Shown here in pieces: positions 10,984 through 62,140 of a stretch of 64,000 nucleotides of DNA. Source of the stretch: Prevotella sp. (GTDB taxonomy: Bacteria > Bacteroidota > Bacteroidia > Bacteroidales > Bacteroidaceae); the NCBI GenBank assembly GCA_017475005.1, contig JAFVGI010000024.1, positions 59,373-123,372 on the forward strand, in the 5' to 3' direction. The notes under the pieces were generated by a model. The model saw only the letters and a list, made by a program, of their open reading frames with translations. It was not told where the DNA came from and did no database searches. The translations under genes were made by a program, and so were the position numbers. The stretch's first letter is position 1. Every line of letters begins with the position of its first letter.

Positions 10984-11301
10984 TAATTGACAATTGACAA
11001 TTGATAATGGCGCAGATGCAATCATTGCATTCTGCGCCAATTCATGTTTGAAGTATGAAGGTTGAAGGTTGATGTATCGGCTTTCGTCGAGGTGGATGTT
11101 TGAAGTTGGAAGGTTGAATTACGATGTTTGAAGTTACTTCGTACTTTGTACCTTATACTTTGTAATCGCGCAGCGACACATCGTACCTCCTACATCCTAC
11201 TTCCTACTCGCGTCAGCGACACATCGTACATCCTACATCCTACTTCCTACTCGCGTCAGCGACACATCGTACTTCCTACTTCGTACATCGTACTTCTTAA
11301 T
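10977..11301 (+). repeat. intergenic region built from several heptamer repeat families
   Basis: The whole gap of about 310 bp between GH31 and the DUF6261 gene is low-complexity sequence with a 7-bp period: (C/T)AATTGA x4 at 10977-11004, GGTTGAA-type units near 11055-11075 and 11105-11120, TTTGTAC/CTTATAC units near 11138-11165, then TCCTAC(A/T) and TCGTAC(A/T) units to 11301. From 11166 a longer 42-43-bp unit (starting TCGCG(T)CAGCGACACATCG) is repeated 2.5 times (11166, 11208, 11251). Both flanking stop codons (GH31 at 10981-10983, DUF6261 at 11297-11299) fall in repeat units. No ORF is credible here. Confidence 0.85.
11008..11039. terminator. inverted repeat, copy 1 (TGGCGCAGATGCAAT arms), convergent junction
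   Basis: Arms TGGCGCAGATGCAAT and ATTGCATTCTGCGCCA form a near-perfect hairpin with a single bulged T. It stands between the convergent GH31 and DUF6261 genes. Copies 2 and 3 are at 39008-39038 and 61481-61512. No strong T-tract follows, so it may be a bidirectional terminator or a dispersed palindromic element. Confidence 0.75.
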
Positions 11302-12232
11302 TCTCCGTTCCTCCAGCATTAGGGTCCGGATCCGGCGTTGTGCCGCCACCACCCGTGCCAGGGTCGGGATTATCTGGAGTGTCGGGAGTAGTAGTGCCAC
11401 CACCATTTTCGGTGCCACCAGGGTTTTCGTTTTGGTTTTCGTTTTCGTTACCAGAACCGTTTTCGTTTTCGTTCCCACCACCGTTTTCGTTTTGACTTCC
11501 GCTGCCGGTGCTTACGCCCTTGCGAGCCAATATCTGACGGAAATGCTCAATCTCGGCATTCAGCAGGTCGATGGCAGAACTGTAGTCAACACCGGCTGGT
11601 ATCTCAGCGATGGCCAGAGCATTGATAAGCTTTACCAAATCCTTGTATGCTGCCTCGGCCTCAAGGCGCGTGGCGCGGACAATACCGGTCTGATGACCTG
11701 CCTGTGCCTCGGTACGCTCGTTCATCTTGGCAAGGAAGGCATCGTTCTTGGTCTTAAGGTCGGTGAACCATTCGTCAAGCCCCGTTGTCGTAAGACATTC
11801 CGTCAGCTCTGCGCTGGCCTCAATCTCCTTGATGTACTGGTCTGCATCGGTCGTCTGCTTCATGTACTCGTCGCTCGGGTCGAGGTGGTACTTCTCGCGG
11901 ACGAACTGCAGTTTCTTTGCAGCAGCCTGCTTTGCCGCGTTAGGAGATTTCAGCATGGCCTTCAGGGCTGCAAGGAAAGCGCTCTGGGCACTGTCACGAC
12001 TCTCGTCCAGTTCCTTGATTTCTTCCGTCTCTTCCCACTTGCGGGCCTGTGCATAGGCATTGTCATAGGCCGTCACCTTGTTGACATAGTTGGTCCACAC
12101 GTTACTGAGCGCATCGGTAAGCGGCGAACGCACAATGATGATACCCTTAATCTGAAGGAAGAAACTGAGAGCAGTTGTTACGTCCATGTGATTGACATGG
12201 ATGCTGTTCAATTGTTTTGCATTTACATTCAT
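11297..12232 (-). CDS. DUF6261 family protein with Gly/Asn-rich C-terminal tail
   Basis: 311 residues. The first 240 or so are alpha-helical, with no signal peptide, and fit the DUF6261 family of Bacteroidales (late block LTTTGLDEWFTDLKTKNDA and EHFRQILARKG). Function unknown. The last 70 residues are low-complexity: NENGGG/NENENGSG repeats, then Pro/Asp/Thr/Gly (PDNPDPGTGGGG), ending AGGTEN. The HU-HIG protein at 61541-62140 has a similar tail ending GGTEN. A gap of 40 bp separates the ATG from a 41-bp-period palindromic array, with an A/T-rich stretch (TATATTTT on the reverse strand, 12257-12264) that could be a -7 box. The TAA stop lies in a heptamer-type repeat. Confidence 0.8.
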   Translation of the reverse strand: MNVNAKQLNSIHVNHMDVTTALSFFLQIKGIIIVRSPLTDALSNVWTNYVNKVTAYDNAYAQARKWEETEEIKELDESRDSAQSAFLAALKAMLKSPNAAKQAAAKKLQFVREKYHLDPSDEYMKQTTDADQYIKEIEASAELTECLTTTGLDEWFTDLKTKNDAFLAKMNERTEAQAGHQTGIVRATRLEAEAAYKDLVKLINALAIAEIPAGVDYSSAIDLLNAEIEHFRQILARKGVSTGSGSQNENGGGNENENGSGNENENQNENPGGTENGGGTTTPDTPDNPDPGTGGGGTTPDPDPNAGGTEN

Positions 12233-12272
12233 AGTTTTAAATATTAGTTAGGTTAAAAAATATATTTATAGC

Positions 12273-12494
12273 TTGCGCAAGTTGCGCGAGGCTTATAGTA
12301 TGTTCTTTTTAGCTCGCGCAGGTTGCGCGAGGCTCCCGACAATTATTTTCTCATTCGCGCAGGTTGCGCGAGACCCTCGATAACATTTTTCTCGTTTGCG
12401 CAGGTTGCGCAAAGCAGCCGACAATCTTTTTCCCGTTCGCGCAGGCCGCGCGAAGTCCCCGACACCTCTCCCCTATCTCGCGCAGGTTGCGCGA
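12273..12494. repeat. tandem array, exact 41-bp period, six palindromic cores TCGCGCAGGTTGCGCGA
   Basis: Six 17-bp cores start at 12273, 12314, 12355, 12396, 12437 and 12478, each exactly 41 bp apart. The core is near-palindromic (TCGCGCAggTTGCGCGA). Core 4 has TTGCGC...GCGCAA, with changes matched on both arms, and core 5 has GGCC in the middle. The 24-bp spacers are more variable but still related (pattern CCCGACAAT-T-rich). 41 is not a multiple of 3 and no frame is conserved, so it is not coding. It lies just upstream of the DUF6261 start and downstream of a terminator hairpin, so it belongs to the DUF6261 upstream region. Confidence 0.93.
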
Positions 12495-12506
12495 GCATAC
12501 AACAAA

Positions 12507-12542
12507 GGCACGCCCCAGTCCCGCTTGGGACTGAAACGTGCC
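12507..12542 (-). terminator. strong hairpin ending the surface-protein/45-residue ORF operon
   Basis: On the reverse strand GGCACG and CAGTCCC pair with GGGACTG and CGTGCC around an AAGC loop, with a small internal loop. The hairpin is followed by TTTGTTGT. It separates the 12848-16117 operon from the DUF6261 upstream array. The stretch 12543-12695 beyond it holds a GCGC/ACGT palindrome (12553-12567) and a run of nine G (12593-12601) but no gene that I can see. Confidence 0.65.
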
Positions 12543-12695
12543 AAAAATCGTCCGCGCCACGTGCGCGTATCTTATTGATTTACAGTTATTTAGGGGGGGG
12601 GTAGCACGATTTCCTGCCGCTGCGCGAGCAGTGGCAAGGTTAATCGCTGATGTCAAAATGGGGTGTTGCATTGATCAAGCTGACTGATTTAACGA

Positions 12696-12833
12696 TTACT
12701 CAAAACCTTCGTCTTCTTCCATTTCCATATCCGGTCTGACAGGAATCTGCGTCGGGTCTGACGTACAGATTATCGATATGGGACTCAGTGTCACTACCTT
12801 TATCTCCGGCTTCTCATATATTTTCTTAATCAT
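12696..12833 (-). CDS. 45-residue peptide with strong Shine-Dalgarno, coupled to the surface protein
   Basis: Short ORF starting MIKKIYEKPEIKVVTL, with a middle TSDPTQIPVRPD and an acidic C-terminus (EMEEDEGFE). It begins 14 bp after the stop of the beta-helix surface protein. The spacer contains AGGAGG six bases before the ATG, a strong Shine-Dalgarno that is rare in this phylum. The pattern K-x-Y-x-x-P-x-x-x-V with a Thr/Ser/Pro middle resembles short peptides I associate with Bacteroidales surface-protein genes. Function unknown. No signal peptide. The coupling and the SD support a real gene. Confidence 0.7.
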   Translation of the reverse strand: MIKKIYEKPEIKVVTLSPISIICTSDPTQIPVRPDMEMEEDEGFE

Positions 12834-12847
12834 AGCGTCCTCCTTCC

Positions 12848-15800
12848 TTAGTTAATGAAAATTTTCTTGCCGTTTACGATGTAAATACCCTTGGTGGTAG
12901 GCTTGCTGTTCAGGCGAAGACCACTGAGCGTAAACCAAGAATCATTGTCACCTCTTACATCTTCCGTCTTACTTCTTACATCGTTCACGCCTGTCACCAC
13001 ATCCTTGTCCCACACCAGCTTGATACCACGTGCCGTAGCCTCTTGTGTCAATGCGCTCGTCAGAATGTGCAGGTAAGCACGGTTCGCCTTCACAGTACCG
13101 CCTGCTGAGTTCACTTTCTTGAACGTGCCGTTCGAGAGACCGAAGTTGGTGTAGTCACCACTTGTCTGGTCGATTTTCGTCTGCGTCGTTACAGCCACCA
13201 GGGCATTGTCGGTCACCGTTGCCGGCGTATCGTCGCTGATGGTCAGCGTGTACGTCTCGCCCGGTTCGCCTCTGAGCAGTACGCCAATCTCGGCAGGCAC
13301 AACACCCTCGATAGCCGTCACACCTATCGCACCTTCCGTTGCATCATAGTTCTTGCAATAATAAGCCTCCAAGCCTTCGGGCAAAGCAAACTTCGCCTTC
13401 GCGCTGAATGTTCCGAGGCCTGATGCAGGCACCGTATACTTTCCGGCAAACAACGCTAGCATCGGCTGGTTTGTCAGCGGGTCTTGCACCCATATTTCCT
13501 CAGCGCGGCCAGCTTGCAGAGCTGTTGCAGTTGTACCGTCGGAGAGTTCTGCAGCAGTTGCTTGTGTACCTTGAGCTGTTCCTATGGGAGTCTTGTAGTA
13601 GCAGTTATTTAGCGTGCCAGACATGGCAATAAAAGTAGCCACATCACTCATCCTGACATTGTATTCATCGCACAAGACCAAACAATTGGTTAGCGTCGAA
13701 CTGCCATAGTACCAACCGACAAAGCCACCCCATGTGTAGGCATTAGGGCCATTGAATACGCCATTGAATATACAATCGTTCATGTAAAGCGTACCCCTCT
13801 GGGCAGCCACGAAACCTCCTTGAACGCCATCACCTGAATAAGTAGTATTAATGGTAACGCTGGAAATACAATTATTAATATAATAAGTGCCTGTGCCTTC
13901 TCCTACAAAACCACCTATCCAACGGTGAGCACCATTAATCGTACCGGCAATACGCAGATTTTGAATGGTGGCTCCATCGGCAACATAACGGAATACGCCA
14001 CATACGTTAGCAGTCGAAGTTAAATTGACAGTCAATGTATGCCCTTGGCCATCAAAGATTCCATTAAAAGATCCAATCATTGCTTGTTCATCCCCGAGAT
14101 TGATATCGGCAACTAACTTTCCTTTTGGAGAAGTTTCTATCTGCGACAAGATCGCAAATTCCTTCCAATTCGTCACATCTGCAATGAGGTAATAGCCCTC
14201 TCCATCTTGTTCTATGTCTGTTTCCGGGTCGAACGATGCTTTTGGTGTCAAAGTACGTGTATTACCTTCTGTGACATCGTTCAGATTTGCTGAAATATAG
14301 ACTGTCGCACCTTGGATGGCGTTTGCAGCGTCAGGTCCTTTGGATGCTGTTAAACTTGTAATACTGCTTCGAATAAGTACACCCTTATCACCACTTATAC
14401 CCACACCTTCACTACCTGAAGCAGAAGCTACGATGGTACCACCTTCAATATATACCACACCACTACTGCCAATACCGACGCTCGTAGTAGTTGAGGCATT
14501 TATATCGCCTCCGCTAATCGCAACTTTGCTGCAATTTCCTCCTATTGCAGTACTTCTCACAGCACTGCTGGTTATTGTTCCTCCGTTGATAGTAATTGCA
14601 CCACACGAATTGGGACCTCCTGCACCAATACCAATACCATCAGATGCGGCAGCGTTGATGGTTCCACCATTGATAGTTATATCTCCACAAGACGAACCAT
14701 GACTATCATCTGCACCTACAGCACCTATTCCACTAGTATAACTACTATTACCATGAGCAGAAATAACACCTCCGTTGATAATTAAACCACCATAAGCGAC
14801 ACGATTATCCCTACAGCCAATGGCTGATGATAATCTTCCTCCGATAGCAATTAGTCTTCCGGTATTTCCATTGATAGTCAAAGTGGTTCCCGACGGACCA
14901 AAAGCAAGTGCGGGACGCCCATACGAATTGCTATCTTCGTCTGAGTCCCTGAGCCTGTTGACAGATCCGTCTTCGATATTGATGGTTGCATTGCCCAAGC
15001 ATTGGATTGGGGATTTTCGGTAATTAGTAATAGTCACATCGCTGAGCGTAATGGTTGCATCTGCAGCAATCTGGATAGAATAGCTGGTAGTACCTGTCAA
15101 CACATCGCCATCCTGCGCGATGTAATCTTCGGTAAGTTCTGAAAGGTTGATGATTTGAGATGTGGGATGCACATACGGCTCATAGGTGGTAATAGGATGA
15201 TTGAAGACATCCAGTCTCGGCTGACCGCTAATACCGTCTTGCACCCAAACAGTCTCTGAACGGCCTGCTTGCAAAGCGGTAGTAATAGAACCATCTGCTA
15301 ATTGCTCGTCGGTGACTTTTGTGCCTTGGACAACTCCAAAGTCCCGATAGTAGTAGCAATTGGTATAAGATCCTGTAGATTGGTCTTCTTTTGCAAACCT
15401 ATCAAAAGTGAAGAACGTTACTCCCCAATCATTATATATATTGGTGTCGCTGCCCTCATCCAGTATAACTAGGCAATTGGTGAGAGCGGAAGTACCTGAG
15501 TAATGATAACCGATAAATCCGCTATGAGATTTTTTGCAGGTCGATTGAATACGACCCGTAAAAATACAATCTGTTATGTTAATCGAGGTTCCATACATAA
15601 AGGCCACAAAGCCTGTGAACGTATCTGCAGTATTGTTTGACGATGCGATATTCACATCGCTCCAGCAATTCTCTATAGTGTTTGTTCCGTATGCCCAGCC
15701 AACTAATCCGGAAGCTCCGATTTTATCTGCTGTTATACTGCCGGCTGTGCGTAGATTGCGGATAGTTGCACCCTCAATATCTCTAAAAGGAGCTGCGCCC

Positions 15801-16117
15801 AAATAACTTTGACCGCTCTCTATACTCATACTCGATGTGTTATAATTGAAGGTCAAAGTATGACCTTGTCCATCAAATGTACCGCTATACCTTGTGGCGT
15901 AAGATCCAATCATCGTCTGGTCAGAGCCAAGGTCAATGTCTGCTATCATACGCGCATTGATGGTAGGTACTGTTTGTGCCAAGGATGCAAAATCCTGCCA
16001 ATCTTGCAATGAACTGAGAATGTAGTAATTCTCTGTGTCTCGATCCAGCGCCCACAGACCAGTGGTCAGCCCGCAGGTGAGGAGCAGCAATGTAAGTAGT
16101 CTTTTCATTCTGTTCAT
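12848..16117 (-). CDS. large secreted beta-helix/GLUG-type surface protein, probable T9SS cargo
   Basis: 1089 residues from the ATG at 16117 (MNRMKRLLTLLLLTCGLTTG), chosen for its signal peptide; another ATG is at 16108. Seen: two homologous modules (roughly 25-320 and 650-890) with NYYILSSLQDWQDF/GYYLIADVTNWKEF openings, FDGQGHTL and GLUG-like 'GGFVG' turns. Between them is a right-handed beta-helix with repeats of the form ITINGGTI. The C-terminus (GLRLNSKPTTKGIYIVNGKK) resembles a type IX secretion sorting domain. PorU and PorV are in this window. It is probably surface-attached; ligand unknown. Downstream and coupled is a 45-residue ORF. Confidence 0.75.
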   Translation of the reverse strand: MNRMKRLLTLLLLTCGLTTGLWALDRDTENYYILSSLQDWQDFASLAQTVPTINARMIADIDLGSDQTMIGSYATRYSGTFDGQGHTLTFNYNTSSMSIESGQSYLGAAPFRDIEGATIRNLRTAGSITADKIGASGLVGWAYGTNTIENCWSDVNIASSNNTADTFTGFVAFMYGTSINITDCIFTGRIQSTCKKSHSGFIGYHYSGTSALTNCLVILDEGSDTNIYNDWGVTFFTFDRFAKEDQSTGSYTNCYYYRDFGVVQGTKVTDEQLADGSITTALQAGRSETVWVQDGISGQPRLDVFNHPITTYEPYVHPTSQIINLSELTEDYIAQDGDVLTGTTSYSIQIAADATITLSDVTITNYRKSPIQCLGNATINIEDGSVNRLRDSDEDSNSYGRPALAFGPSGTTLTINGNTGRLIAIGGRLSSAIGCRDNRVAYGGLIINGGVISAHGNSSYTSGIGAVGADDSHGSSCGDITINGGTINAAASDGIGIGAGGPNSCGAITINGGTITSSAVRSTAIGGNCSKVAISGGDINASTTTSVGIGSSGVVYIEGGTIVASASGSEGVGISGDKGVLIRSSITSLTASKGPDAANAIQGATVYISANLNDVTEGNTRTLTPKASFDPETDIEQDGEGYYLIADVTNWKEFAILSQIETSPKGKLVADINLGDEQAMIGSFNGIFDGQGHTLTVNLTSTANVCGVFRYVADGATIQNLRIAGTINGAHRWIGGFVGEGTGTYYINNCISSVTINTTYSGDGVQGGFVAAQRGTLYMNDCIFNGVFNGPNAYTWGGFVGWYYGSSTLTNCLVLCDEYNVRMSDVATFIAMSGTLNNCYYKTPIGTAQGTQATAAELSDGTTATALQAGRAEEIWVQDPLTNQPMLALFAGKYTVPASGLGTFSAKAKFALPEGLEAYYCKNYDATEGAIGVTAIEGVVPAEIGVLLRGEPGETYTLTISDDTPATVTDNALVAVTTQTKIDQTSGDYTNFGLSNGTFKKVNSAGGTVKANRAYLHILTSALTQEATARGIKLVWDKDVVTGVNDVRSKTEDVRGDNDSWFTLSGLRLNSKPTTKGIYIVNGKKIFIN

Positions 16118-16247
16118 AATGTTATTGATTGTTTGTTTTAGTAGATATTCTTGGCACACAAAGCCCTCTCCATTTTCTTCTCTCTTGGAGGGAGAGATGT
16201 ATGTATGTATGCATTCTTGCTTAGGTTAGGGTTTAGGAAGGTTTATA

Positions 16248-16565
16248 TTATACGCTCACACCAGTGCGCATTACGTCATCGTAAAGGGGTGACTGGCGAT
16301 CTTCAGCCATGAGGACAGGTTCTATAAGAAGACTCACCTGATCGACATCGTGCCAAAGATTCTTGGATATCTCAAACTTTCTGTTACCATAAGTAGGCAC
16401 TATAACAGCAACGTCGATATCACTATCGGCATTAGCATTGCCCTTGCTATAAGAACCAAACATCAAGACCTTCGGCTCCACGGCAAAACGCGAGCTGATA
16501 ACCTGCTTGTAACGGCGTACAAGTTCGAGGGCCTCTTCACGGGTCAAAGCCTGTCTTTTATCCAT
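16248..16565 (-). CDS. minimal nucleotidyltransferase (MNT), antitoxin-type partner of HEPN
   Basis: 105 residues. Seen: the nucleotidyltransferase motif GSYSKGNANADSDIDVAV (about residues 37-54: GS, then D-x-D metal ligands). The pair with the HEPN protein directly upstream (22-bp overlap) is the classic HEPN/MNT two-gene module, in which the MNT partner is known in some systems to neutralise the HEPN RNase by nucleotide transfer. Here the third catalytic acid is not obvious. A role as toxin-antitoxin is family knowledge, not shown by the sequence. Confidence 0.88.
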   Translation of the reverse strand: MDKRQALTREEALELVRRYKQVISSRFAVEPKVLMFGSYSKGNANADSDIDVAVIVPTYGNRKFEISKNLWHDVDQVSLLIEPVLMAEDRQSPLYDDVMRTGVSV

Positions 16566-16936
16566 TGTTGCAGTTGTTTAGTTTCGTCTATTATTTGTCG
16601 GCACACCTGAGGGGTGAGCATTTTCGAAAGTTCTTCCTTGTCTTCAGGGTAACGGGCCTCAATATTATAATTCGTAATAGCATTGAGGAAGTCTTTCTGC
16701 TCTTCACTCATTATCGCATAAAGCCCACAACCATCAGCCAAGCGTTTGTGGCTATGAGTATATGGCGGGTCTGACTCCTGAGTACCACACCAATATGCCT
16801 TTAGAGTTTTTTCGATTGTCTGATGACACATAAAAGCAACATAAAGCCAACGTCCCGTCTGGTACATAGCCTCTGCTGTGTTTATGTCATAGTCGGCAAT
16901 GTCAAGCCAATATTCTACTTTTTCTTCTTTTGTCAT
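16544..16936 (-). CDS. HEPN domain protein, partner of MNT
   Basis: 130 residues from the ATG at 16936 (MTKEEKVEYW). The upstream GTG at 16960 is rejected because it sits only a few bases from the promoter -7 box. Seen: helical HEPN pattern YDINTAEAMYQTGRWLYVAF, HQTIEKTLKAYW and the family signature NIEARYP. The RNase motif R-x4-6-H of toxic HEPN proteins is not clear; the only candidate is R-x8-H (RWLYVAFMCH), so nuclease activity is uncertain. It may be a regulatory or nucleotide-binding HEPN. Overlaps the MNT gene by 22 bp. Confidence 0.85.
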   Translation of the reverse strand: MTKEEKVEYWLDIADYDINTAEAMYQTGRWLYVAFMCHQTIEKTLKAYWCGTQESDPPYTHSHKRLADGCGLYAIMSEEQKDFLNAITNYNIEARYPEDKEELSKMLTPQVCRQIIDETKQLQQWIKDRL

Positions 16937-16964
16937 ATTAGCCAATGTATTTGCAATCACGCTG

Positions 16965-16996
16965 CAAAAGTAAGAATAAATTTTTAACCACGCAAG
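16965..16996 (-). promoter_or_regulatory. promoter of the HEPN/MNT pair
   Basis: Reverse strand: CTTG (16993-16996), 20-bp spacer, TACTTTTG (16965-16972). It fits the Bacteroidota consensus with one mismatch in the -33 box and supports the ATG at 16936 as the start. Confidence 0.65.
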
Positions 16997-17016
16997 AAAA
17001 TCAGCAAAAAAAGAAA

Positions 17017-17044
17017 AATCCCGCAGTCGGATAACTGCGGGATT
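17017..17044 (-). terminator. intrinsic terminator at the end of the ftsY-to-deacetylase operon
   Basis: Eleven-bp perfect arms (AATCCCGCAGT / ACTGCGGGATT) with a 6-nt loop. In the leftward direction it is followed by TTTTTCTTTTTTT. It lies 70 bp after the polysaccharide deacetylase stop. Confidence 0.85.
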
Positions 17045-17063
17045 CTACCTTTATATATTATAG

Positions 17064-17107
17064 GGGAGTGAAAAGGGAGTGAAAAGGGAGTGATAGTGGA
17101 GTGACAG
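17064..17107. repeat. 11-bp tandem repeat GGGAGTGAAAA, 4 units
   Basis: Units GGGAGTGAAAA, GGGAGTGAAAA, GGGAGTGATAG and TGGAGTGACAG lie between the deacetylase stop and its terminator. A related block on the other strand occurs at 44751-44800, also beside a terminator. Confidence 0.85.
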
Positions 17108-17112
17108 GGACA

Positions 17113-17787
17113 TTACAGTGTCTTCAGCTCGTAGCCTTGCTCCTTAAGGAAACGTATGGAGGCCGGGAGGGCGTACTTCAGTTTCTGGATGCTCTTCAGG
17201 GAATCGTGGAACGTGATGATGGAGCCGTTGCGGGTGTAATAGACCACATTCCTGAAGACGTCGAAGGCATTAAGGTTGCGGGAATAGTCACGCGTCACAA
17301 GGTCCCACATCACGATGGTGTAACCCCTCTTCATCAGCATGTGATAGGCGCTGAGCCACATCCAGCCGTGAGGCGGACGGAACAGAGGCTTTTCAAGTGA
17401 AGAGTGACGAGTGAAGAGTGAAGAGTTTTCTGAGCCACCGACATTCGCGGCTGTCTGCATTACGGCATCGGCCGTCTCGATGTTCGAGAGATAGGTCTTG
17501 ACATAATGCCTCAGCGAACCCATGTGGTTGTAGGTATGGTTGCCGATGCTGTGGCCCTCGCTGATGATACGGCGAAAGAGGTCGGGATAGCGTTTCACAT
17601 TCTCGCCCACCACGAAGAAGGTGGCCTTCACGCCATGCTCCTTGAGGGTATCGAGAATGAAGGGCGTCGATTCGGGTATCGGACCGTCATCGAATGTCAG
17701 GTACACCGAATGCTCCGCAGCGTCCATGCGCCACAGAGCCTTCGGATATAACCATTTCATCCATTTGGAAGGTTGTTCAATGAACAC
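17113..17787 (-). CDS. polysaccharide deacetylase (NodB-type, carbohydrate esterase family 4)
   Basis: 224 residues. These enzymes remove acetyl groups from N-acetylated sugars, for example in peptidoglycan or exopolysaccharide. Seen: the five CE4 motifs TFDDGP (about 31), HSIGNHTYNH (metal-binding His pair, about 80-89), RPPHGW (about 137), WDLVTRDY and ITFHDS. No signal peptide. Three bp separate it from the DUF2723 gene. Oddity: about residues 120-130 (SENSSLFTRHSSLE) are encoded by CTTCACT heptamer repeats that look like an insertion of an intergenic repeat between motifs 2 and 3; on this strand the repeat has no stop codon. Confidence 0.9.
   Translation of the reverse strand: MFIEQPSKWMKWLYPKALWRMDAAEHSVYLTFDDGPIPESTPFILDTLKEHGVKATFFVVGENVKRYPDLFRRIISEGHSIGNHTYNHMGSLRHYVKTYLSNIETADAVMQTAANVGGSENSSLFTRHSSLEKPLFRPPHGWMWLSAYHMLMKRGYTIVMWDLVTRDYSRNLNAFDVFRNVVYYTRNGSIITFHDSLKSIQKLKYALPASIRFLKEQGYELKTL
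17396..17427 (+). repeat. heptamer repeat AGTGAAG, 4 units, inside the deacetylase gene
   Basis: Units AGTGAAG, AGTGACG, AGTGAAG, AGTGAAG plus a partial unit. The same unit follows the GH29 gene at 61422-61435, where its TGA supplies the stop codon. Here it is read on the opposite strand as CTTCACT, which is stop-free in all frames. Confidence 0.85.
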
Positions 17788-17790
17788 GGC

Positions 17791-21129: not shown

Positions 21130-21175
21130 TTTCTTGTATTTTATTTAATATTACGATTTTCAATGAATCAGTTTT

Positions 21176-39001: not shown

Positions 39002-39292
39002 CGAGAATGGCGCAGATGCAATCAAGCATTCTGCGCCATTTAACTTTCAATCTGTTTGCTATAATTTTAAGTTATTGTTATGTATGTTTTTGTCCGCTGA
39101 GGGCTCAGAGGCACCTTTGTAACCTTGCAGAAGCACCGCTGAGTGTGCAGAGTCTATTCTGCTTCCGCGCAGCACCACCGCACCGGCAGAGGGCGACCTC
39201 CTTGATTGTTACTTTGATTTATATCCTCGCGTTTGTTTTAAATGACTTAGAAAAGAAGCGCGAGGCATCTTTGATAAACGGCTTTATTTCCT
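39002..39292. other. convergent intergenic region manA/porV
   Basis: About 290 bp. It holds the inverted repeat at 39008-39038 and a weaker hairpin CCTCGCG (39225-39231)/CGCGAGG (39259-39265) with a 27-nt loop that could serve porV as a terminator. The middle (39070-39210) is GC-richer, but no gene is supported. Confidence 0.6.
39008..39038. terminator. inverted repeat, copy 2, convergent junction manA/porV
   Basis: Arms TGGCGCAGATGC and GCATTCTGCGCCA with a 6-nt loop, same element as at 11008 and 61481; slightly shortened centre. Begins 7 bp after the manA stop. Confidence 0.75.
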
Positions 39293-47812: not shown

Positions 47813-47997
47813 TCTTAAGTTTCTTTTAAAATTACTTTTATTAATATACATTCTTCGGAGTCGGATTCACTAACCGTAGGCGCGGCCAAACGCCGTACTA
47901 TTAACACCTTCTCCAATGGGTGGGGCTCTAAGTGTACCCCAGCGGCTCTCTCGAACCATGAAACCAAGCGCCGGTAGTCTAGGTCGACGCAGTTTCG
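47813..47997 (-). ncRNA. structured 5' leader of the rplM operon (probable L13 ribosomal leader)
   Basis: About 185 nt between the promoter at 48003-48010 and the rplM ATG. The RNA is GC-rich against the local background, with several possible stems (GTCGACCTAGAC, TGGGG...CCCCA, CGGCG...CGCC). L13 leaders that bind L13 and repress its operon are described for Bacteroidia; assignment here rests on position and apparent structure, not on a covariance match. Confidence 0.6.
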
Positions 47998-50715: not shown

Positions 50716-50747
50716 CAAAATTAACACTTTTTTCCCGAATACACAAA
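50716..50747 (-). promoter_or_regulatory. consensus promoter of typA
   Basis: Reverse strand TTTG (50744-50747), 20-bp spacer, TAATTTTG (50716-50723). Exact fit; the ATG at 50685 follows after about 30 bp. Confidence 0.85.
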
Positions 50748-50761
50748 TATTTTATAGTTTT

Positions 50762-50803
50762 GCCCTGGAAAACGTCGTTTTTTTATTCAACGTAATCCAG
50801 GGC
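50762..50803 (-). terminator. hairpin downstream of the GH51 gene
   Basis: Eight-bp outer arms (GCCCTGGA/TCCAGGGC) with an inner ACGT pairing. It is followed leftward by AAAACTAT rather than a T-run, so termination efficiency is uncertain. It lies between the GH51 stop and the typA promoter. Confidence 0.55.
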
Positions 50804-50833
50804 AAGACACTATTTTTTGCTTTCTTGCAAATT

Positions 50834-52840: not shown

Positions 52841-52860
52841 ATTATCTTTTTATTATTTAG

Positions 52861-55245: not shown

Positions 55246-55279
55246 ATTCTGTGCAATTTAGTGTTTTAAAATTTGAGTG

Positions 55280-55287
55280 CAAAAATA
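55280..55287 (-). promoter_or_regulatory. -7 box of the CotH/GH51 operon
   Basis: TATTTTTG on the reverse strand, 35 bp before the CotH ATG; the -33 element is not clear. Confidence 0.55.
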
Positions 55288-55361
55288 CACATATCTTACC
55301 ATACAAGCATTTTCTATTGTACCATATATTATTTCAGGTATTACTTATTGATAGTTTCCAT

Positions 55362-55404
55362 AAAAAAACTGCGGCAGTTGCTATTCATGAGCACTGCCGC
55401 AGTT
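55362..55404 (-). terminator. intrinsic terminator of the lipoprotein gene
   Basis: Perfect 12-bp arms AACTGCGGCAGT / ACTGCCGCAGTT with a 14-nt loop, followed leftward by a T-run. Classical intrinsic terminator, 31 bp after the lipoprotein stop. Confidence 0.92.
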
Positions 55405-55435
55405 GATATTTCTTTACGAAGCGGAAACTTCGGTT

Positions 55436-56593
55436 TTACTTCTTCGTATTGGGGGCGTATAATTCGACTTTTTCATCAGGACGCAGAGCACTTGTTACCT
55501 GTCCCTTTACTGTGCAAGGCTTGCCAAGCTTCACTACGCTGCTCTTGCAGAGCTGCTCCCAGATATCCTCTGTGGTGCAGTAGCTATGAATCTCGATTGT
55601 CAGACCATCGTGGAAGTTCTGCTTCAACTCCTGAATGAGCTGTGCAGGGATGTTTGCAATCTCGATGGTGATACCATTCTCGTTATGGGTAACGGTATGA
55701 GTGATGTTATACTCCTTATAGTTAAAGTCAAATACGCGGATAGCGAAGTCGTCCTTCTCAATAACATCAGCCTGATTCAAAGGAATGTTGATGGTAACAG
55801 ACTCTACGTCAGCACGAATGTGTACAGAAGTCTTTATCTCGTTCCAGTCCTGGTGTATCTGCTGGTGGATGTCAACCTCTACGTTGTTAGGATCAATGTA
55901 TGCGATGTCATTCTTGTTAGGCACTTCGTAATTAACGATAACGCCATTAACGTGCCATCCGTACTGCATACCAACTTCCTTCACAACATACCACAGGACG
56001 TGCTTGTCGAGGTAACCAGGGTTAGCATCCTCCAAGGCCTTCAGTTCATAAAGCTTACTGAGATCTTTCTTATTGTCATCTATCTCATCCTGTAGGATAT
56101 CCATCACCTTAGGAGCCTTCTTTATGGCAAACTGAGTATTTATGCCTTGCTGGTCAAGAACATAGCGGAATAGGCCAATGTTGTTGCCAGTCTTCTTGTC
56201 CTTCTTGTAATAGTCGAGGTCACGGTCATTGTAGCGTCCGTATGGATATAGGGTGTAAACCTCACCCCTGTTCCTACCGTCCTTGCCGGCAGAACGTCCA
56301 TAATAGAGTACAGAACTCTGGTCGATATAGCCAGGAATAAAGCCGTCAGCACGGATAGAGAAACGGGCTGTTTCCCAACCATCAACCGTGTTTACGTAAG
56401 GCCACTGGTATTCACCAAGTTCACTACGTGTCCCGGCAGTATTAGCGCCAAGCAACTGGCCCTGAACATAAATCTCAGTCTCAGGCACATTCGAATTGTC
56501 GATAGGACCTGTGCCTTCATCACTGCTGTCACTTGAGCAAGCCACAAAAAGCGGCATGCACAACATTGAAATGATTAGATGCTTGAAATTCAT
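55436..56593 (-). CDS. outer-surface lipoprotein of unknown function
   Basis: 385 residues from the ATG at 56593 (MNFKHLIISMLCMPLFVACSS). Seen: a lipobox LFVAC followed by SSDSSDEG, an acidic stretch consistent with surface export of Bacteroidota lipoproteins, then a beta-rich body with aspartate-rich and helical segments; no known catalytic motif recognised. Monocistronic: promoter at 56636-56665 and terminator at 55362-55404. It stands between the CotH/GH51 operon and the DUF4450 glycosidase, so a role in polysaccharide use is possible but unproven. Confidence 0.75.
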   Translation of the reverse strand: MNFKHLIISMLCMPLFVACSSDSSDEGTGPIDNSNVPETEIYVQGQLLGANTAGTRSELGEYQWPYVNTVDGWETARFSIRADGFIPGYIDQSSVLYYGRSAGKDGRNRGEVYTLYPYGRYNDRDLDYYKKDKKTGNNIGLFRYVLDQQGINTQFAIKKAPKVMDILQDEIDDNKKDLSKLYELKALEDANPGYLDKHVLWYVVKEVGMQYGWHVNGVIVNYEVPNKNDIAYIDPNNVEVDIHQQIHQDWNEIKTSVHIRADVESVTINIPLNQADVIEKDDFAIRVFDFNYKEYNITHTVTHNENGITIEIANIPAQLIQELKQNFHDGLTIEIHSYCTTEDIWEQLCKSSVVKLGKPCTVKGQVTSALRPDEKVELYAPNTKK

Positions 56594-56635
56594 ATACACA
56601 CTGTTTTTTTAAGGTGATTTTTATCTACGTGGGTG

Positions 56636-56665
56636 CAAAGGTAGCAAAAATTTCCAATACTCAAA
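56636..56665 (-). promoter_or_regulatory. promoter of the lipoprotein gene
   Basis: Reverse strand TTTG (56662-56665), 18-bp spacer, TACCTTTG (56636-56643). Spacer one base shorter than usual. Confidence 0.7.
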
Positions 56666-56709
56666 AATAAAATCTAAAAAATTTCGCTATTTCTATTATT
56701 ATTTTTGCG

Positions 56710-59688
56710 TTATCGCTGCAATGTAACCGCCATCAAACCTATTATCACATCGTTTGAGAGGGTACGAACGGTAATGTCTTTCAATGACTTCTGAACATTA
56801 ATAGGCATATCGAGGATTATGCCTGCACCTTTCTCCAGAGAACGATCGTTATAGCTGCCGGCAACTCCTGAGGATACAGGGCGTCCATAAAACTTTCCCA
56901 TTGGCATCAGCTGGCGAGTGACACGAGCCGTTGCAAAGTCGATGCGATAAGGACGCGGTTGTGCAGCATGGAAGGCCAAGCCGTCCTCATAATAGTCTTG
57001 TTCTATCGGACACCAGTTATGGGGATTCTGCAGGTGCAAGGTATCTGAAGTGCCATCATTATAGCGAACGATGACGAGACCATTATCAATGTGGCTCTGC
57101 ATGTGATTGGTAGAGCCAGCCATCAAGAGGTAGGCATGAGTTGCCTTCCCTGACAATGGCAGGGTGACAGCATCGGGATAGTTGTCCCACAGCGAGGTAT
57201 AGGCAATATTATGTCCCTTTGCAGAATATCGGAAGGGAATGCCGAGGGTATCTGTGATGAGCAATCCTTGAGCATCTGTCTTTTGGCGTAAGACACTATC
57301 ATCAATATCAGCCATTGTTTCAGGATGACACCACTCGCCAATGCCGTGAACAGGTATCTGGAGAGTAGTATATGGCGAACGTGGAGAGAGGTATGAATTC
57401 TTGAAAATATCACTGACGCAGGAGTTCCACAGTGAATCCATCGCGACAGGTTCCAACAGGCTGCGCTGCACATCATCAAAGTTATTTCCCCACACACTAT
57501 TGTCTATACGATAGGCCGTAATCAACGGCTTGGGGGGACGCTTTTGTTTTACATGAGGAACCACAAAGGTTTGTCGTTTCTCTCTGCTGCCAAGTGTCTC
57601 GACATATCCCCCATCACCTGTATTCTGACGCAGCACTACCTGCAGAGGCTGCACAAAATTCTGTTCTACCTCATAGATATCCATATTACCCTCACGATGG
57701 AAAGAATATTTGAAATATGGTGTCTCTATGCTCGCTTCTTTCCAATCATCAGGAAAACCCGGCCGAAGGATGCATCGCCCCTGCAGGGCATTAGGAATGA
57801 TGCCGTAAAGGCCTTGTATAAAGGTGCGAGCGGAGATGCCGCAATTGTCAGAGAAATCACGATAGAGTTCTCCACGGGCCTTGTCATAATAACTTATCTG
57901 TCCGAAGTTTCCCGGGCTGCCTCCCAGATAGGCCTGATCCATGATGTTCGCCTTTATGAGTGCAAAACCCTCTTTACTACGTCCTGCCAGGAAACAGCTC
58001 AGGGCAGTATGCATCACCTCTTCCGCCGCTACATTATTTATACTCCAGTCGTAGGGCATCCAGTCGGTGGTGCTGAGAGTTGAGAGGTTAGTGGTTAGTG
58101 TTAAGCGGTTAGCGGTTATTGGGATGTGGGGTATGCAGGAATCAACATATTGCGTTGCCTGAAAGGCCTGTTGGGGAGTACATGCTCCGCAGTCAATAGG
58201 GGTATATATGCTCCAAAGGGCTGCATGGTCATGTGTACGTTTCAAACCCAGGAAATCCTGATATTCAGCCCAATGCCCACTTTCCTTAAGCCATAGCCGC
58301 TGGTTCATGGCACGAAGGGTTTTGTCAGCTTCCTGCCTGTAATATGCAGGATTTTCACCAAGGATTTCTGCTATTCGTGCAGCAAGGGAGAACCCGCGAT
58401 AGTTATAGGCTGACGAATGAGTCACAGCCCCACTGTTATAATATAGTGCATCGGAAGCCCAAATGCAGCAATATGCATCATAGAGTCCGTCATCATCCGG
58501 GTCGAAGCAACGTTTTTCCCATGCCAGATGACGAGTGAGAACGGGCCACATTTTTCGCATATAGGCGGTATCGGCATCAAACTCAAAATGCCACAGCAAC
58601 TCGTCAATGAAGTTGAGGTTCATGTCATAGTGGTGCATCACATCCTTACGGTTAGGGTAACGACATATATAACCGTTGGAATACATCTGTGTACCCCACT
58701 TCTTTATTCCTCGTGACAGTCCTTTTTCTGGGTCGAGTGAAGGACCGGCAACAGTCGGTTCCACATCTGTCACCTGACTGGCGGCATAGGCGGAGAAATG
58801 GCTTTTTGCCCGTTCAGGCATTCCGAGGACATCGCCAAGATATCCTGCCCTCCAGCCATTGAGCTGCATACGCCATACCACAGCACCATGCAGCCAGGTC
58901 TCACCATCCCAGGCGCCGTCGCTGGCGGCCATCAGGGCACCACCAAGAGTATTGATATATGGATCAGGGGTATTGAACACTATATTGTTTGCAAGCCATT
59001 GGTGATGTCTCCAGGCTTTGTCAAACAGCTGTTGTCCCTCAGAGACGGTAGGTACCGACAGCGAATAGACACCTTCGGAATCACAATCCAGGACAGCAAA
59101 GGTCGGTCCCTGTCCTACAGTCCATTGTGATGTCAGTTTATTGGTCTCGGCAGGAGATGGGTCGAAAGAATCTGCCGGGTCGGAATTCATATCTCCGGCA
59201 CGCTTGAATTTTGGGCGCAACACATCACAAACAACACATGACAGCCGGGCATCCTGCGGCAGGTCATTTGCCTCAAACTTCCAGATAGCAGACTCGCTGT
59301 CGGGCTGCGCAAGAGCTGTGATGATGAGTTTTCCCTTTCCCCAATTATCATCTGTAAGGATATATACGCGTTTTCCGGAATTATAACGTGCCTCGCAGTG
59401 GGTGGTTTGTTCCAGTGGAACCGTCTTTCCACCTATTGTCAACGAGAAACGGATATTGCGGTGGCTGCGTTTGCGGTAGGTACCAAAGATGGGGCGGTCG
59501 CTTGTCTCCAGACGAAAATCCGTGTAGCCTCCATAGAGGGCACGGGTATAGCGATGCTGTCCGTCATAGCACACTATGTCACGCCCTTCAGGTTGGTAAT
59601 GCAGGGTACGGACATCCTGAGCCGACAGCGTACAGAAGGCTGTGCAGAAAACAAAAACAGCAAAAAGGGATGAAAAGCCTGTCTTCAT
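56710..59688 (-). CDS. DUF4450-type secreted six-hairpin glycosidase-like protein
   Basis: 992 residues from the ATG at 59688 (MKTGFSSLFAVFVFCTAFCT), chosen for its signal peptide; the longer ORF crosses the promoter. Seen: an N-terminal beta domain (LHYQPEGRDIVCYDGQHRYT, DUF4450-like), a central (alpha/alpha)6-type region (about 240-690; DGAWDGETWLHGAVVWRMQL, acidic residues that could be catalytic, and FDPDDDGLYDAY), and a C-terminal beta region. Sequence resembles Bacteroidota carbohydrate enzymes but the substrate is unknown. About residues 523-540 are encoded by an inserted heptamer repeat (58086-58120). Divergent from the GH29 gene. Confidence 0.72.
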   Translation of the reverse strand: MKTGFSSLFAVFVFCTAFCTLSAQDVRTLHYQPEGRDIVCYDGQHRYTRALYGGYTDFRLETSDRPIFGTYRKRSHRNIRFSLTIGGKTVPLEQTTHCEARYNSGKRVYILTDDNWGKGKLIITALAQPDSESAIWKFEANDLPQDARLSCVVCDVLRPKFKRAGDMNSDPADSFDPSPAETNKLTSQWTVGQGPTFAVLDCDSEGVYSLSVPTVSEGQQLFDKAWRHHQWLANNIVFNTPDPYINTLGGALMAASDGAWDGETWLHGAVVWRMQLNGWRAGYLGDVLGMPERAKSHFSAYAASQVTDVEPTVAGPSLDPEKGLSRGIKKWGTQMYSNGYICRYPNRKDVMHHYDMNLNFIDELLWHFEFDADTAYMRKMWPVLTRHLAWEKRCFDPDDDGLYDAYCCIWASDALYYNSGAVTHSSAYNYRGFSLAARIAEILGENPAYYRQEADKTLRAMNQRLWLKESGHWAEYQDFLGLKRTHDHAALWSIYTPIDCGACTPQQAFQATQYVDSCIPHIPITANRLTLTTNLSTLSTTDWMPYDWSINNVAAEEVMHTALSCFLAGRSKEGFALIKANIMDQAYLGGSPGNFGQISYYDKARGELYRDFSDNCGISARTFIQGLYGIIPNALQGRCILRPGFPDDWKEASIETPYFKYSFHREGNMDIYEVEQNFVQPLQVVLRQNTGDGGYVETLGSREKRQTFVVPHVKQKRPPKPLITAYRIDNSVWGNNFDDVQRSLLEPVAMDSLWNSCVSDIFKNSYLSPRSPYTTLQIPVHGIGEWCHPETMADIDDSVLRQKTDAQGLLITDTLGIPFRYSAKGHNIAYTSLWDNYPDAVTLPLSGKATHAYLLMAGSTNHMQSHIDNGLVIVRYNDGTSDTLHLQNPHNWCPIEQDYYEDGLAFHAAQPRPYRIDFATARVTRQLMPMGKFYGRPVSSGVAGSYNDRSLEKGAGIILDMPINVQKSLKDITVRTLSNDVIIGLMAVTLQR
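58086..58120. repeat. heptamer repeat (GGTTAGT-type, 5 units) inside the DUF4450 gene
   Basis: Units GGTTAGT, GGTTAGT, GTTAAGC, GGTTAGC, GGTTATT. Read on the coding strand they give ITANRLTLTTN. The third unit in reading order departs from the pattern (GCTTAAC instead of GCTAACC); a regular unit there would give an in-frame TAA. Confidence 0.85.
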
Positions 59689-59711
59689 CTTTGTGATTGT
59701 ATTTATGGGCA

Positions 59712-59719
59712 CAAAGATA
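59712..59719 (-). promoter_or_regulatory. -7 box of the DUF4450 gene
   Basis: TATCTTTG on the reverse strand, 23 bp before the ATG at 59688; no clear -33 box. Confidence 0.6.
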
Positions 59720-59736
59720 CAAAAAAAAGAATTAAT

Positions 59737-59769
59737 ATTGGTTTTTTGCAAAAAAAATTTCTATCTTTG
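59737..59769 (+). promoter_or_regulatory. promoter of the GH29 gene
   Basis: ATTG (59737-59740), 21-bp spacer, TATCTTTG (59762-59769). The ATG at 59807 follows after 37 bp. The two promoters of this divergent region face away from each other within 60 bp, so a shared regulator is plausible. Confidence 0.7.
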
Positions 59770-59806
59770 CAAGCGAAAAGTAAAATCTAAAAAAACATAT
59801 ATCACT

Positions 59807-61426
59807 ATGAACAAGACATCATTTGCTAGTATTGTGTTATTGTCACTTATGACGATGGTTCAGGCACAGACATACCAGGTTCCTGTTTCCGGAGAACATG
59901 AGAAGATGGCAGAAGGAAAGTATGAACCCACCTGGCAGTCGTTGCAGCAGCATAAGACTCCGGAATGGTTTCGCGATGCTAAATTCGGCATCTGGGCACA
60001 CTGGGGACCGCAATGCGTAGAGGGTTCCGGTGACTGGATGGCCCGTGAGATGTACATGGAGGGTTCAAAGGCATATAAGCACCATGTAGAGCATTACGGA
60101 CATCCGTCTGAAGTGGGATTCAAGGATATCCTGCCACTCTTCAAGGCAGAGAAATGGAATCCGGCAGAACTGGTGGCACGATATAAGAGAGTCGGAGCAA
60201 AGTATTTCTTCGTCTTGGCAAACCATCACGACAACTATGACTTGTGGGATTCAAAATACCAGCCTTGGAACTCCAAGAACATAGGTCCTAAACGCGATAT
60301 ACTGGCAGAATGGGAAGAAGCAGCACGCAAGGAGGGGCTGCCCTTCGGAATATCATTTCATGCCGACCATGCATGGATATTCTACGAACCCTCACAACGC
60401 TACGACCTCAACGGCAAAAAGGGAGGAGTATATTATGACGGACACATGACCAAGGAGGACGGCAAAGGAAAATGGTGGGAAGGCATGGACCCACAGCAGT
60501 TGTATGCACAGCAGCATCCAATGAGTGAACGAGGATGGTGGAACGGTGCAATACACCAACAATGGGACTGGACACATGGCGCCACCCTACCCTCACAGGA
60601 ATTTGTCACGAACTTCTATGACCGCACCCTGGATGCCATAAACCGCTATCATCCAGACCTGACATATTTCGATGTTACCGTATTGCCATTCAATGACATC
60701 AGCGATGCAGGACTGAAGATTGCCGCACACCAATATAACACCAATGACAAGAGCGTCCTGTTCGGAAAGATACTGAATGATGAGCAGCGTCAGGCCATCA
60801 CATGGGATGTGGAACGCGGAGCACCCAGCTATATTGTTCCGGAGCCCTGGCAGACATGCACCTGCATCGGTGGCTGGCATTATAACACCGGCATCTATGA
60901 GCGAAACGGATACAAGAGTGCCTTGACAGTAGTGCGCCAGTTGGTGGATGTGGTTTCAAAGAACGGTTGTCTGCTGCTCAGCATACCATTGCGTGCCGAC
61001 GGCACATACGACGAAAAGGAGGCAGTGGTCCTTGACGACCTGGAGGCATGGATGAAAATAAACGGCGAGAGCATCTACGGCACACGTCCGTGGCACATCT
61101 TTGGCGAAGGACCAGTGGCAAGTGCCGACATAAAGATGAATGCCCAAGGATTTAACGATGGGCAGTATGGAAAGATGGACTGTAGCGACATACGCTTCAA
61201 TCAGACAAAGAAGTATCTGTATATCACCCCTATGGCCTGGCCGGAAGACGGAAAGGTTGTCATAAAATCGTTGGCAAAGAACAACAAATACATGAAGAGC
61301 AACATCACCAGTGTCTATCTGTTAGGATACGGCAAGGTAAAGGCCCAGCAGACGGAAGAAGGTCTGGTAGTAACGCTACCTAAACCCCTGAACAACGTAG
61401 TGCCGGTGATGAGAGTTAAGAAGTGA
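59807..61426 (+). CDS. secreted alpha-L-fucosidase, GH29
   Basis: 539 residues from the ATG at 59807 (MNKTSFASIVLLSLMTMVQAQ), chosen for its signal peptide; the longer in-frame ORF overlaps the divergent gene. GH29 removes terminal L-fucose. Seen: WFRDAKFGIWAHWGPQCVEG (family N-terminus), YFFVLANHHDNYDLWDSKY, the nucleophile segment HPDLTYFDV (Asp about residue 287), and C-terminal beta strands. The stop TGA lies in an AGTGAAG heptamer. Confidence 0.93.
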   Translation: MNKTSFASIVLLSLMTMVQAQTYQVPVSGEHEKMAEGKYEPTWQSLQQHKTPEWFRDAKFGIWAHWGPQCVEGSGDWMAREMYMEGSKAYKHHVEHYGHPSEVGFKDILPLFKAEKWNPAELVARYKRVGAKYFFVLANHHDNYDLWDSKYQPWNSKNIGPKRDILAEWEEAARKEGLPFGISFHADHAWIFYEPSQRYDLNGKKGGVYYDGHMTKEDGKGKWWEGMDPQQLYAQQHPMSERGWWNGAIHQQWDWTHGATLPSQEFVTNFYDRTLDAINRYHPDLTYFDVTVLPFNDISDAGLKIAAHQYNTNDKSVLFGKILNDEQRQAITWDVERGAPSYIVPEPWQTCTCIGGWHYNTGIYERNGYKSALTVVRQLVDVVSKNGCLLLSIPLRADGTYDEKEAVVLDDLEAWMKINGESIYGTRPWHIFGEGPVASADIKMNAQGFNDGQYGKMDCSDIRFNQTKKYLYITPMAWPEDGKVVIKSLAKNNKYMKSNITSVYLLGYGKVKAQQTEEGLVVTLPKPLNNVVPVMRVKK

Positions 61427-61435
61427 AGAGTGAAG
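61414..61435 (+). repeat. AGTGAAG-type heptamers over the GH29 stop
   Basis: AGTTAAG, then AGTGAAG x2; the GH29 stop (TGA 61424-61426) is inside the first AGTGAAG. Same unit as at 17396-17427. Confidence 0.75.
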
Positions 61436-61440
61436 AATAA

Positions 61441-61475
61441 CCCATTAGCCCTATTAGTCTCATTAGACCTAGCAT
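61441..61475 (+). repeat. 9-bp repeats of the CCCATTAG type
   Basis: CCCATTAGC, CCTATTAGT, CTCATTAGA, CCTAGCATA; three to four 9-bp units between the GH29 stop and the inverted repeat. Confidence 0.65.
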
Positions 61476-61480
61476 AACAA

Positions 61481-61512
61481 TGGCGCAGATGCAATCATTG
61501 CATTCTGCGCCA
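61481..61512. terminator. inverted repeat, copy 3, convergent junction GH29/HU-HIG
   Basis: Identical in both arms and loop to copy 1 at 11008-11039 (arms TGGCGCAGATGCAAT / ATTGCATTCTGCGCCA). Confidence 0.78.
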
Positions 61513-61518
61513 ATAAAC

Positions 61519-61546
61519 TTTAACCGTTAAACGTTAACCGTTAATT
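61519..61546. repeat. heptamer repeat over the HU-HIG stop
   Basis: Units TTTAACC, GTTAAAC, GTTAACC, GTTAATT (reverse strand GGTTAAC type). The HU-HIG stop (TAA, 61541-61543) lies in the last unit. Confidence 0.8.
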
Positions 61547-62140
61547 CTCTGTGCCACCGGTATCGTCACCACCAGGATTGGTGTTATCGTTGTTTCCGGT
61601 GCCACCTCCGGTGTCGCCACCATTGTCGTCACCGCCTCCACCACCTGGGGTGTCGCCGCTGTCGGGATCGACGTTGCCGTTGCCCTGCGTGATGTCTTCT
61701 TCCTCTTCCTCAACGACGTTACCGTTGTTGTCCACCTTCTGCCATGATACGGAGCTGGCAAACAACAGCGAATACTTCGGCGACACTGTGCAACCCAAGC
61801 GCGACTTGGCATTGTTTGCCTTTACGTCCTTTGCCTCGGCAGCCTTCTTCACTGTGCCGTCAGGGTTCAGCTCGTCCTTCACAGAACACTGGATGTTGGG
61901 ATAAACTGTCAGGAAGTCTGTGCCCAACTTGCAGCGGAAGCCACGAGCAGCCTCGCGCTGAACTACCTTCATGAACTTCGATACGCAGCCCGTCATCTCC
62001 TCCACAGAATAGGTATTGTCCTCGCAAGCCTCCTCGCAAAGTTCGTTGAAACTCAGTGTGCCATTAAATTTTGGCACAGCATACCAGGAGTGGGTACCAG
62101 TCTTGGTATTTTCCTTTACTCCATACTTGATTTTTGCCAT
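61541..62140 (-). CDS. HU-HIG type DNA-binding protein with Gly-rich C-terminal tail
   Basis: 199 residues. Seen: an HU-like domain (about 1-125; FNGTLSFNELCEEACEDNT, KVVQREAARGFRCKLGTDFL) of the Bacteroidota HU-HIG family (HU fused to a winged helix, Ig or Gly-rich motif), then VEEEEEDITQGN and a tail of Gly/Asp/Asn (GGGGGDDNGGDTGGGTGNND), ending GGTEN. Function unknown; DNA binding is inferred from the family. A 23-bp-period palindromic array begins 60 bp upstream of the ATG, and a TACCTTTT box (62170-62177, reverse strand) could be its -7 element. Convergent with GH29. Confidence 0.83.
   Translation of the reverse strand: MAKIKYGVKENTKTGTHSWYAVPKFNGTLSFNELCEEACEDNTYSVEEMTGCVSKFMKVVQREAARGFRCKLGTDFLTVYPNIQCSVKDELNPDGTVKKAAEAKDVKANNAKSRLGCTVSPKYSLLFASSVSWQKVDNNGNVVEEEEEDITQGNGNVDPDSGDTPGGGGGDDNGGDTGGGTGNNDNTNPGGDDTGGTEN

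Follow-up and report, generated by a model that had tools for sequence, protein, structure and literature searches.

Regular upstream arrays and common C-terminal endings of DUF6261 and HU-HIG genes in Prevotella: hints of a DNA-organising or self-regulating system

Two tailed genes and their upstream arrays

A stretch of 64,000 nucleotides (nt) from the genome of Prevotella sp. (contig JAFVGI010000024.1), hereafter the window, carries a DUF6261 gene and an HU-HIG-like gene whose proteins have unrelated heads, end in the same five residues, GGTEN, and each lie behind a regular repeat array. Such shared endings and own arrays hint at an undescribed DNA-organising or self-regulating system. The source genome (G000; other genomes and loci are cited by G and L numbers) comprises 2.36 Mb in 72 contigs and is 81% complete. 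The two genes, their tails and their arrays are located in the window as follows:

11297..12232, minus strand: DUF6261 gene, with a head of residues 1 to about 239 and a low-complexity tail (Pfam PF19775, 7.7e-31)
11297..11515, minus strand: DUF6261 tail, Gly/Asn/Glu/Pro-rich in translation, with the end GGTEN and with DNA blocks common to HU tails elsewhere in the genome
12270..12500, minus strand: array of six units with a period of exactly 41 bp and the core CTCGCGCAACCTGCGCGAG, upstream of the DUF6261 start codon
61541..62140, minus strand: HU-HIG-like gene with a Gly-rich tail (Pfam PF18291)
61541..61699, minus strand: HU-HIG tail, about 52 residues, Gly-rich, with the block GDDNGGDTGG and the end GGTEN
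62200..62260, minus strand: array of three units with a period of 23 bp and the core AAGTATACTT, upstream of the HU start codon, with palindromy within chance

DUF6261 is a Pfam family of unknown function, of which the window protein is a clear member (107.5 bits against a cut-off of 27 for PF19775), and its relatives were found in seven named contigs from rumen and other Prevotella-like metagenome-assembled genomes. The HU-HIG protein scores 25.0 bits (2.1e-5) in hmmscan against a PF18291 cut-off of 26.2, and the same match reaches 26.2 bits, over the cut-off, when flanking in-frame residues are included in a genome search; its match to the NCBIfam model HU_rel (1.7e-7) falls under that model's cut-off. 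The fusion of an HU-type head to a glycine-rich motif, a trait of PF18291, is present. A preliminary description of this DNA had held that the folded parts are unrelated and that both tails finish GGTEN-stop, and both statements are borne out: the heads belong to different Pfam families, the longest DNA that they have in common is 9 nt, and both translations terminate GGTEN-TAA.

The arrays are a stronger discovery than the shared tail. A regular array, counted as three or more evenly spaced units, was looked for in the 450 nt upstream of the 40 window open reading frames (ORFs) of at least 150 amino acids, and only the DUF6261 and HU-HIG genes have one (0/38 others). Dinucleotide shuffling of the upstream DNA of 23 related DUF6261 genes produced no such array in 230 trials (0/230). 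Across genomes, 34 of the 40 evaluable DUF6261 loci carry a regular array with a period of 41 (19 loci), 42 (13) or 43 bp (2), and all seven named relatives have one. Among 47 HU-HIG loci (three too short were left out), 20 have a regular array, with periods of 22 (13 loci), 21 (3), 23 (2), 20 and 18 bp, distributed as 10/20 in G003, 6/9 in G008, 3/9 in G007 and 0/8 in G006. Two helical turns correspond roughly to the periods near 21 bp, and four to those near 42 bp. As a control, 32 neighbouring genes with upstream DNA not common to a focal gene gave an array in three cases (3/32), after exclusion of 92 genes that were focal or shared focal upstream DNA or its array. The sampling of both families was non-random, the DUF6261 loci coming from part of the matches and the HU-HIG loci being the best-scoring ones in many-copy genomes; in the DUF6261 count, rows L035, L054 and L061 (the same as L111-L113) and L042, with 11 nt upstream, were omitted, and L159 and L056 are a single locus. 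The six array-negative DUF6261 loci include L113 and L116, with six to seven units and an irregular gap, L037, with three units in a longer stretch, and L057 and L039, with two units; L049 has none of that period.

Units are alike inside one array and mostly unlike between loci. The window core CGCGCAACCTGCGCG, at up to two mismatches, occurs at nine sites in G000, of which six are in the array, one is in the same leader and two are elsewhere. The preliminary description had called both window arrays palindromic as well as regular. Regularity applies to both, while palindromy beyond 200 shuffles was found for the DUF6261 unit (p 0.00) and not for the HU unit (p 0.14). Over all loci, the units of 20 of 54 arrays are palindromic beyond shuffles against about 2.7 expected (DUF6261 10/34, HU-HIG 10/20). 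Regular spacing is general to the arrays and palindromy is not.

Tail endings within and between genomes

Back-translated GGTEN-TAA was scanned against G000 and a reversed control, and then against 150 same-genus genomes, own included. It occurs in G000 nine times exactly and once with one mismatch, and in the reversed control not at all. Seven genes are intact, two of them DUF6261 (window and contig 26) and five HU-HIG (window and contigs 17, 30, 45 and 55). A truncated DUF6261 tail stands at the start of contig 34, and contig 29 (L028, tail 1491-1518) holds a head-less remnant, NKAGGTEN-stop, close behind what appears by eye to be a repeat array. The site with one mismatch belongs to a broken copy of an HU gene on contig 19 (L033), whose TTGGTGCGCGCCAAC array is the same as that of contig 17 (L026); contig 19 bears another HU-HIG gene, with six units in its array and a Gly-rich tail that closes with GGGDEG. 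Whether other tailed proteins come with arrays, on which the preliminary description had made its pairing depend, has a mixed answer: arrays accompany five of the seven intact GGTEN genes, and the genes on contigs 30 and 55 have none within 600 nt.

The relatives, in which the same description had expected GGTEN or similar ends, yielded no GGTEN-tailed protein outside G000 among the 150 genomes. A match in G074 (L034) was rejected as a short intergenic frame with no tailed protein. Some other genomes have endings of their own. In G007, ends resembling GGDTE[VI][ED]P..GD close five of the 11 HU-HIG loci fetched, a sixth being cut by a contig end. The end PSDPLPM[VI]PK[ED] has six matches with at most one mismatch in G076, five of them in the frame of a DUF6261 gene and the sixth shortly after a DUF6261 match with an earlier stop, and 7 of the 12 HU-HIG loci read in that genome end KP. 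In G003, 13 of the 20 HU-HIG genes fetched end GP plus three to four residues.

The last eight residues of 73 proteins were compared pairwise, and tips were called alike when at least four were in common. Where heads are dissimilar or unrelated, 52 of 326 pairs from one genome have tips alike; for cross-genome pairs with dissimilar heads the figure is 7 of 2155. Permutation matched the observed same- versus cross-genome difference in 6 of 2000 trials. Even where cross-genome heads are at least 35% identical, tips are alike in only 3 of 83 pairs, all three with heads 86-99% identical. For example, the HU protein of contig 30 and that of L135 have heads 60% identical and a tip agreement of 0/8, and four more G076-G003 pairs, picked by eye, agree in 0 to 2 of 8 tip residues (heads measured for two, 79% and 68%). 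Pairs of DUF6261 with HU-HIG within a genome have tips alike in 10 of 18 cases, all 18 from G000. On these comparisons, tips appear to follow the genome: related heads in different genomes differ in ending, and unrelated heads in one genome can share it.

Two processes seem to keep the tails alike. Linkers contain identical DNA blocks of 37 nt (HU of contig 55 and window DUF6261), 24 nt (HU of contig 17 and DUF6261 of contig 26) and 29-35 nt (HU genes of contigs 17, 45 and the window), and the GDDNGGDTGG block of the window HU-HIG tail is common at the DNA level to the genes on contigs 17 and 45. Seven of 36 pairs share a longer linker block than synonymous shuffles produce, each at the lowest p that 100 shuffles allow (0.01), suggesting that segments were exchanged between loci. 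The proposal of the preliminary description that tails are exchanged by recombination is hence supported by the 24 and 37 nt HU/DUF6261 blocks, with the caveat that slippage of GAAAAC repeats could contribute to shared NEN blocks. The two window tails themselves have only 10 nt of DNA in common (synonymous-shuffle p 0.68), and in their common end peptide the codons differ. Across nine G000 loci GGTEN is spelled by eight codon versions while the peptide is constant, suggesting that the end peptide would also be held by selection.

Many of these genes sit at contig ends (G000 contigs 19, 26, 30, 34 and 63; G007 contigs 9, 13 and 78). Assemblies may break at such genes, and copy numbers are probably underestimated. 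In G003, the HU-HIG tails of L092 and L107-L110 read LTPAPSPKGEGS or near variants; they have the look of in-frame read-through into a dispersed GC-rich repeat, and more repeats follow just downstream. Small single-helix peptides, which we take to be smalltalk-like as a candidate label, were seen by eye beside tailed HU-HIG genes, downstream in G007 (L131, L132, L134 and L135) and upstream of the HU gene of contig 55 (L017).

What the arrays and tails may do

Our tentative reading is that tailed HU-HIG and DUF6261 proteins bind DNA at the arrays and use the tail tip as a common interface. Proteins of both families would assemble as multimers on the helically phased array adjoining their own start, each unit spanning about two helical turns in HU-HIG and about four in DUF6261. 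In this way the gene would regulate itself, and a nucleoprotein patch would begin to form. The tip that several genes of a genome have in common would serve as the shared interface, contacting either one partner or other tails, and would link patches made by heads of different specificity; segmental DNA exchange and purifying selection on the end peptide would keep the tails of a genome alike. HU is a known DNA-binding fold, which supports the HU part of this reading. DNA binding by DUF6261 is suggested by the array, leader and tail that it has in common with HU-HIG. That heads recognise their own arrays, that regulation runs through the arrays and that the tail makes contacts are our inferences, with condensation or DNA-linked assembly as a possible role.

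A link between a head and its own array is weakly supported. In 14 cross-genome HU pairs with heads at least 45% identical, array similarity is 7.2 against 5.0 in the rest (20/2000 permutations), and heads and arrays are clearly alike together in L176-L100 and in L140 and contig 29. Among the DUF6261 loci L157, L158 and L159, N-terminal differences number 10/54 where the array core changed and 1/54 where it did not, a contrast that is only suggestive; the L158-L056 row of this comparison reflects a frame shift and was discounted. Other observations weigh against the proposed reading. The cross-genome Spearman correlation of head with array for HU is 0.02, and arrays are unlike despite head identities of 67-76% in the pairs L124-contig 63, L127-contig 63 and L175-L107. 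When 31 DUF6261 loci were scanned by a partial Mantel test (three loci with under three units were skipped), no part of the head consistently followed the array: windows reaching p 0.02-0.03 occur here and there along the head, and the lowest value, 0.004, lies at residues 231-242. Regular arrays are missing at 27 of the 47 HU-HIG loci, and in 34 of the 54 arrays, the window HU array among them, palindromy of the units does not exceed that of shuffles. A tip common to both families was seen only in G000: the DUF6261 tip of G076 is absent from the HU-HIG genes read there, and no dissimilar-head pair has a common tip in G006 (0/27) or G008 (0/17). Tail and array are separable, HU-HIG genes on contigs 29 and 63 having an array without a tail. 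The modular cassette of the preliminary description accordingly survives as a recurrent gene type, made of a head, a low-complexity tail, a common tip and often an array, and not as a strict cassette.

One alternative, that these are plain autoregulators, is somewhat unlikely. The arrays would be operator clusters of their own genes, and the tail a functionless disordered segment for solubility or spacing, alike through low-complexity recombination. The position of the arrays, upstream and near promoter-like boxes where one was found, agrees with it, as do the tail blocks common at the DNA level and the array-bearing HU-HIG genes without a tail, for which tails are dispensable. What it leaves to be explained is a GGTEN constant in nine loci with eight codon spellings and the switch of tip between genomes by related heads, which ask for selection on the peptide. 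A very doubtful alternative places control in the RNA leader, where the array would be transcribed into hairpins that attenuate, a short leader peptide acting with them. In 11 of 94 upstream regions, all DUF6261 (L157-L163, L047, L048, L052 and L058), the array is preceded at 4 to 45 nt by a short ORF with the end RPPP; its Arg codon is CGC, CGA or CGG, and no such ORF is present in any of the six frames of the window. The only two G000 occurrences of CGNCCTCCGCCGG are in leaders of array-bearing HU-HIG genes (contig 19, L011, and contig 45, L019), which makes a leader feature common to both families. PPP motifs can stall ribosomes, and the RPPP leader ORF is possibly a ribosome-stalling leader. 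A box with the Bacteroidetes promoter consensus TAnnTTTG was found for 20 of 54 arrays and for neither window array; in the other 34 none was found. It lies outside the array in 11 cases, as RNA control would have it, inside in one, and between array and gene in eight, against that expectation. Palindromy confined to a minority of units also argues against hairpins, and so do the stem changes: single changes to G-U and to A-C are equally frequent (31:35 for DUF6261 and 13:13 for HU-HIG; 12:17 and 9:10 in a hand count of palindrome-passing loci only), and double changes keep a Watson-Crick pair in 9 and 2 cases and break it in 12 and 2. The G-U-tolerant covarying stems that are a hallmark of RNA cis-regulatory leaders were thus not seen in the arrays, and Rfam gave no match at the five DUF6261 loci or the window arrays scanned, its only window match being the L13 leader given below. 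The arrays fit a reading as DNA sites, to which the adjacent protein would bind.

That head, array and tail are parts of a selfish or mobile element copying around the chromosome is quite doubtful. DUF6261 is patchy (19 of 100 genomes, with at most 11 matches in one) and the HU-HIG model matches number from 1 to 30 per genome (20 genomes, ordinary HU included); the same array stands at different sites (contigs 17 and 19; L108-L110), head-less and broken remnants occur, and DUF6261 has two distant faecal phage matches (E 1e-10 and 1e-12 at 27-28% identity) plus a single weak one in PHROG (3.7e-5). However, no recombinase was found among the five window flanking proteins scanned, a search covering DUF6261 alone gave no plasmid match and no close relative in viral contigs, and units are unlike between most loci. 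Short conserved C-terminal ends behind a flexible linker are typical of sorting tags, and GGTEN could be a sorting signal of a surface or secretion tail; with an HU head of DNA-binding fold and no obvious signal peptide at the N-termini, judged by eye, this is highly improbable. An extension of the proposed reading, in which these proteins would be chromosome-wide self-addressing DNA organisers, with a private array per paralog, a lineage-specific tip spread by recombination across unrelated heads, and DUF6261 as a new array-binding fold with four-turn spacing, is unlikely in that full form.

The DNA-binding reading with a common tip has partial counterparts. The Pfam title of HU-HIG (PF18291) describes an HU domain fused to a winged helix-turn-helix, an immunoglobulin or a glycine-rich motif, so the HU-like head with a Gly-rich C-terminus is already known; a partial coverage of the literature gave no description of private phased arrays or of genome-specific tips for this family, and no paper on the combination of array and shared tip. 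For DUF6261 (PF19775), the 41-43 bp array and the shared tail lie outside the Pfam model, of which the window head is a clear match. Plasmid Rep iterons, ParB-parS and ParR-parC also place regular repeats, with periods near whole helical turns, beside the gene of a binder, as is likely here; the present arrays differ in lying on chromosomal contigs, with many paralogs per genome and a private unit each, and replication or partition genes were not found among the five window neighbours scanned. The C-terminal tails of SSB and FtsZ, a disordered linker with a conserved tip, resemble the low-complexity linker and short terminal peptide described here, whereas the present tip is common within a genome across unrelated heads and different between genomes. 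Such a distribution is uncommon and suggests that the tips co-evolve with one partner that they share. DUF6261 gains a precise candidate partner, the 41-43 bp phased array private to each gene. If true, the proposed reading would mean that relatives of Prevotella in gut and rumen have an added layer of chromosome organisation or self-regulation.

Downstream repeats and neighbouring genes

Downstream of each gene lies a copy of one inverted repeat:

11008..11039, unstranded: inverted repeat TGGCGCAGATGCAATCATTGCATTCTGCGCCA, between the converging GH31 and DUF6261 genes
61481..61512, unstranded: second copy of the inverted repeat, between the converging fucosidase and HU genes

Its presence at both genes was correctly reported in the preliminary description, while its place in a cassette was not upheld. 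The sequence GGCGCAGATGC begins at 11009 and 61482 and also at 39009 in the window, with nine copies in the genome. Five of the nine lie within 300 bp of a GGTEN end, where about 0.13 pairs would be expected if copies were confined to intergenic DNA, assumed to be 12%. Seven of the eight copies examined stand between converging ORF ends (the contig 17 copy is between genes that apparently run in the same direction), and the repeat hence looks like a terminator or a dispersed repeat. It is a separate dispersed element, though enriched near GGTEN ends. Heptamer repeats, likewise described beside both genes, are present; they are not specific, since period-7 repeats also occur at 7780 and 17396 in the window.

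The five flanking proteins scanned are GH31, fucosidase, DUF4595, lipocalin-like and one without a Pfam match. PADLOC models for anti-phage defence give 0 families for either window protein. A 318 bp tandem duplication (63208-63802) lies within the lipocalin-like gene near the HU gene, and an L13-Bacteroidia ribosomal protein leader (RF03127) is found at 47864-47941.

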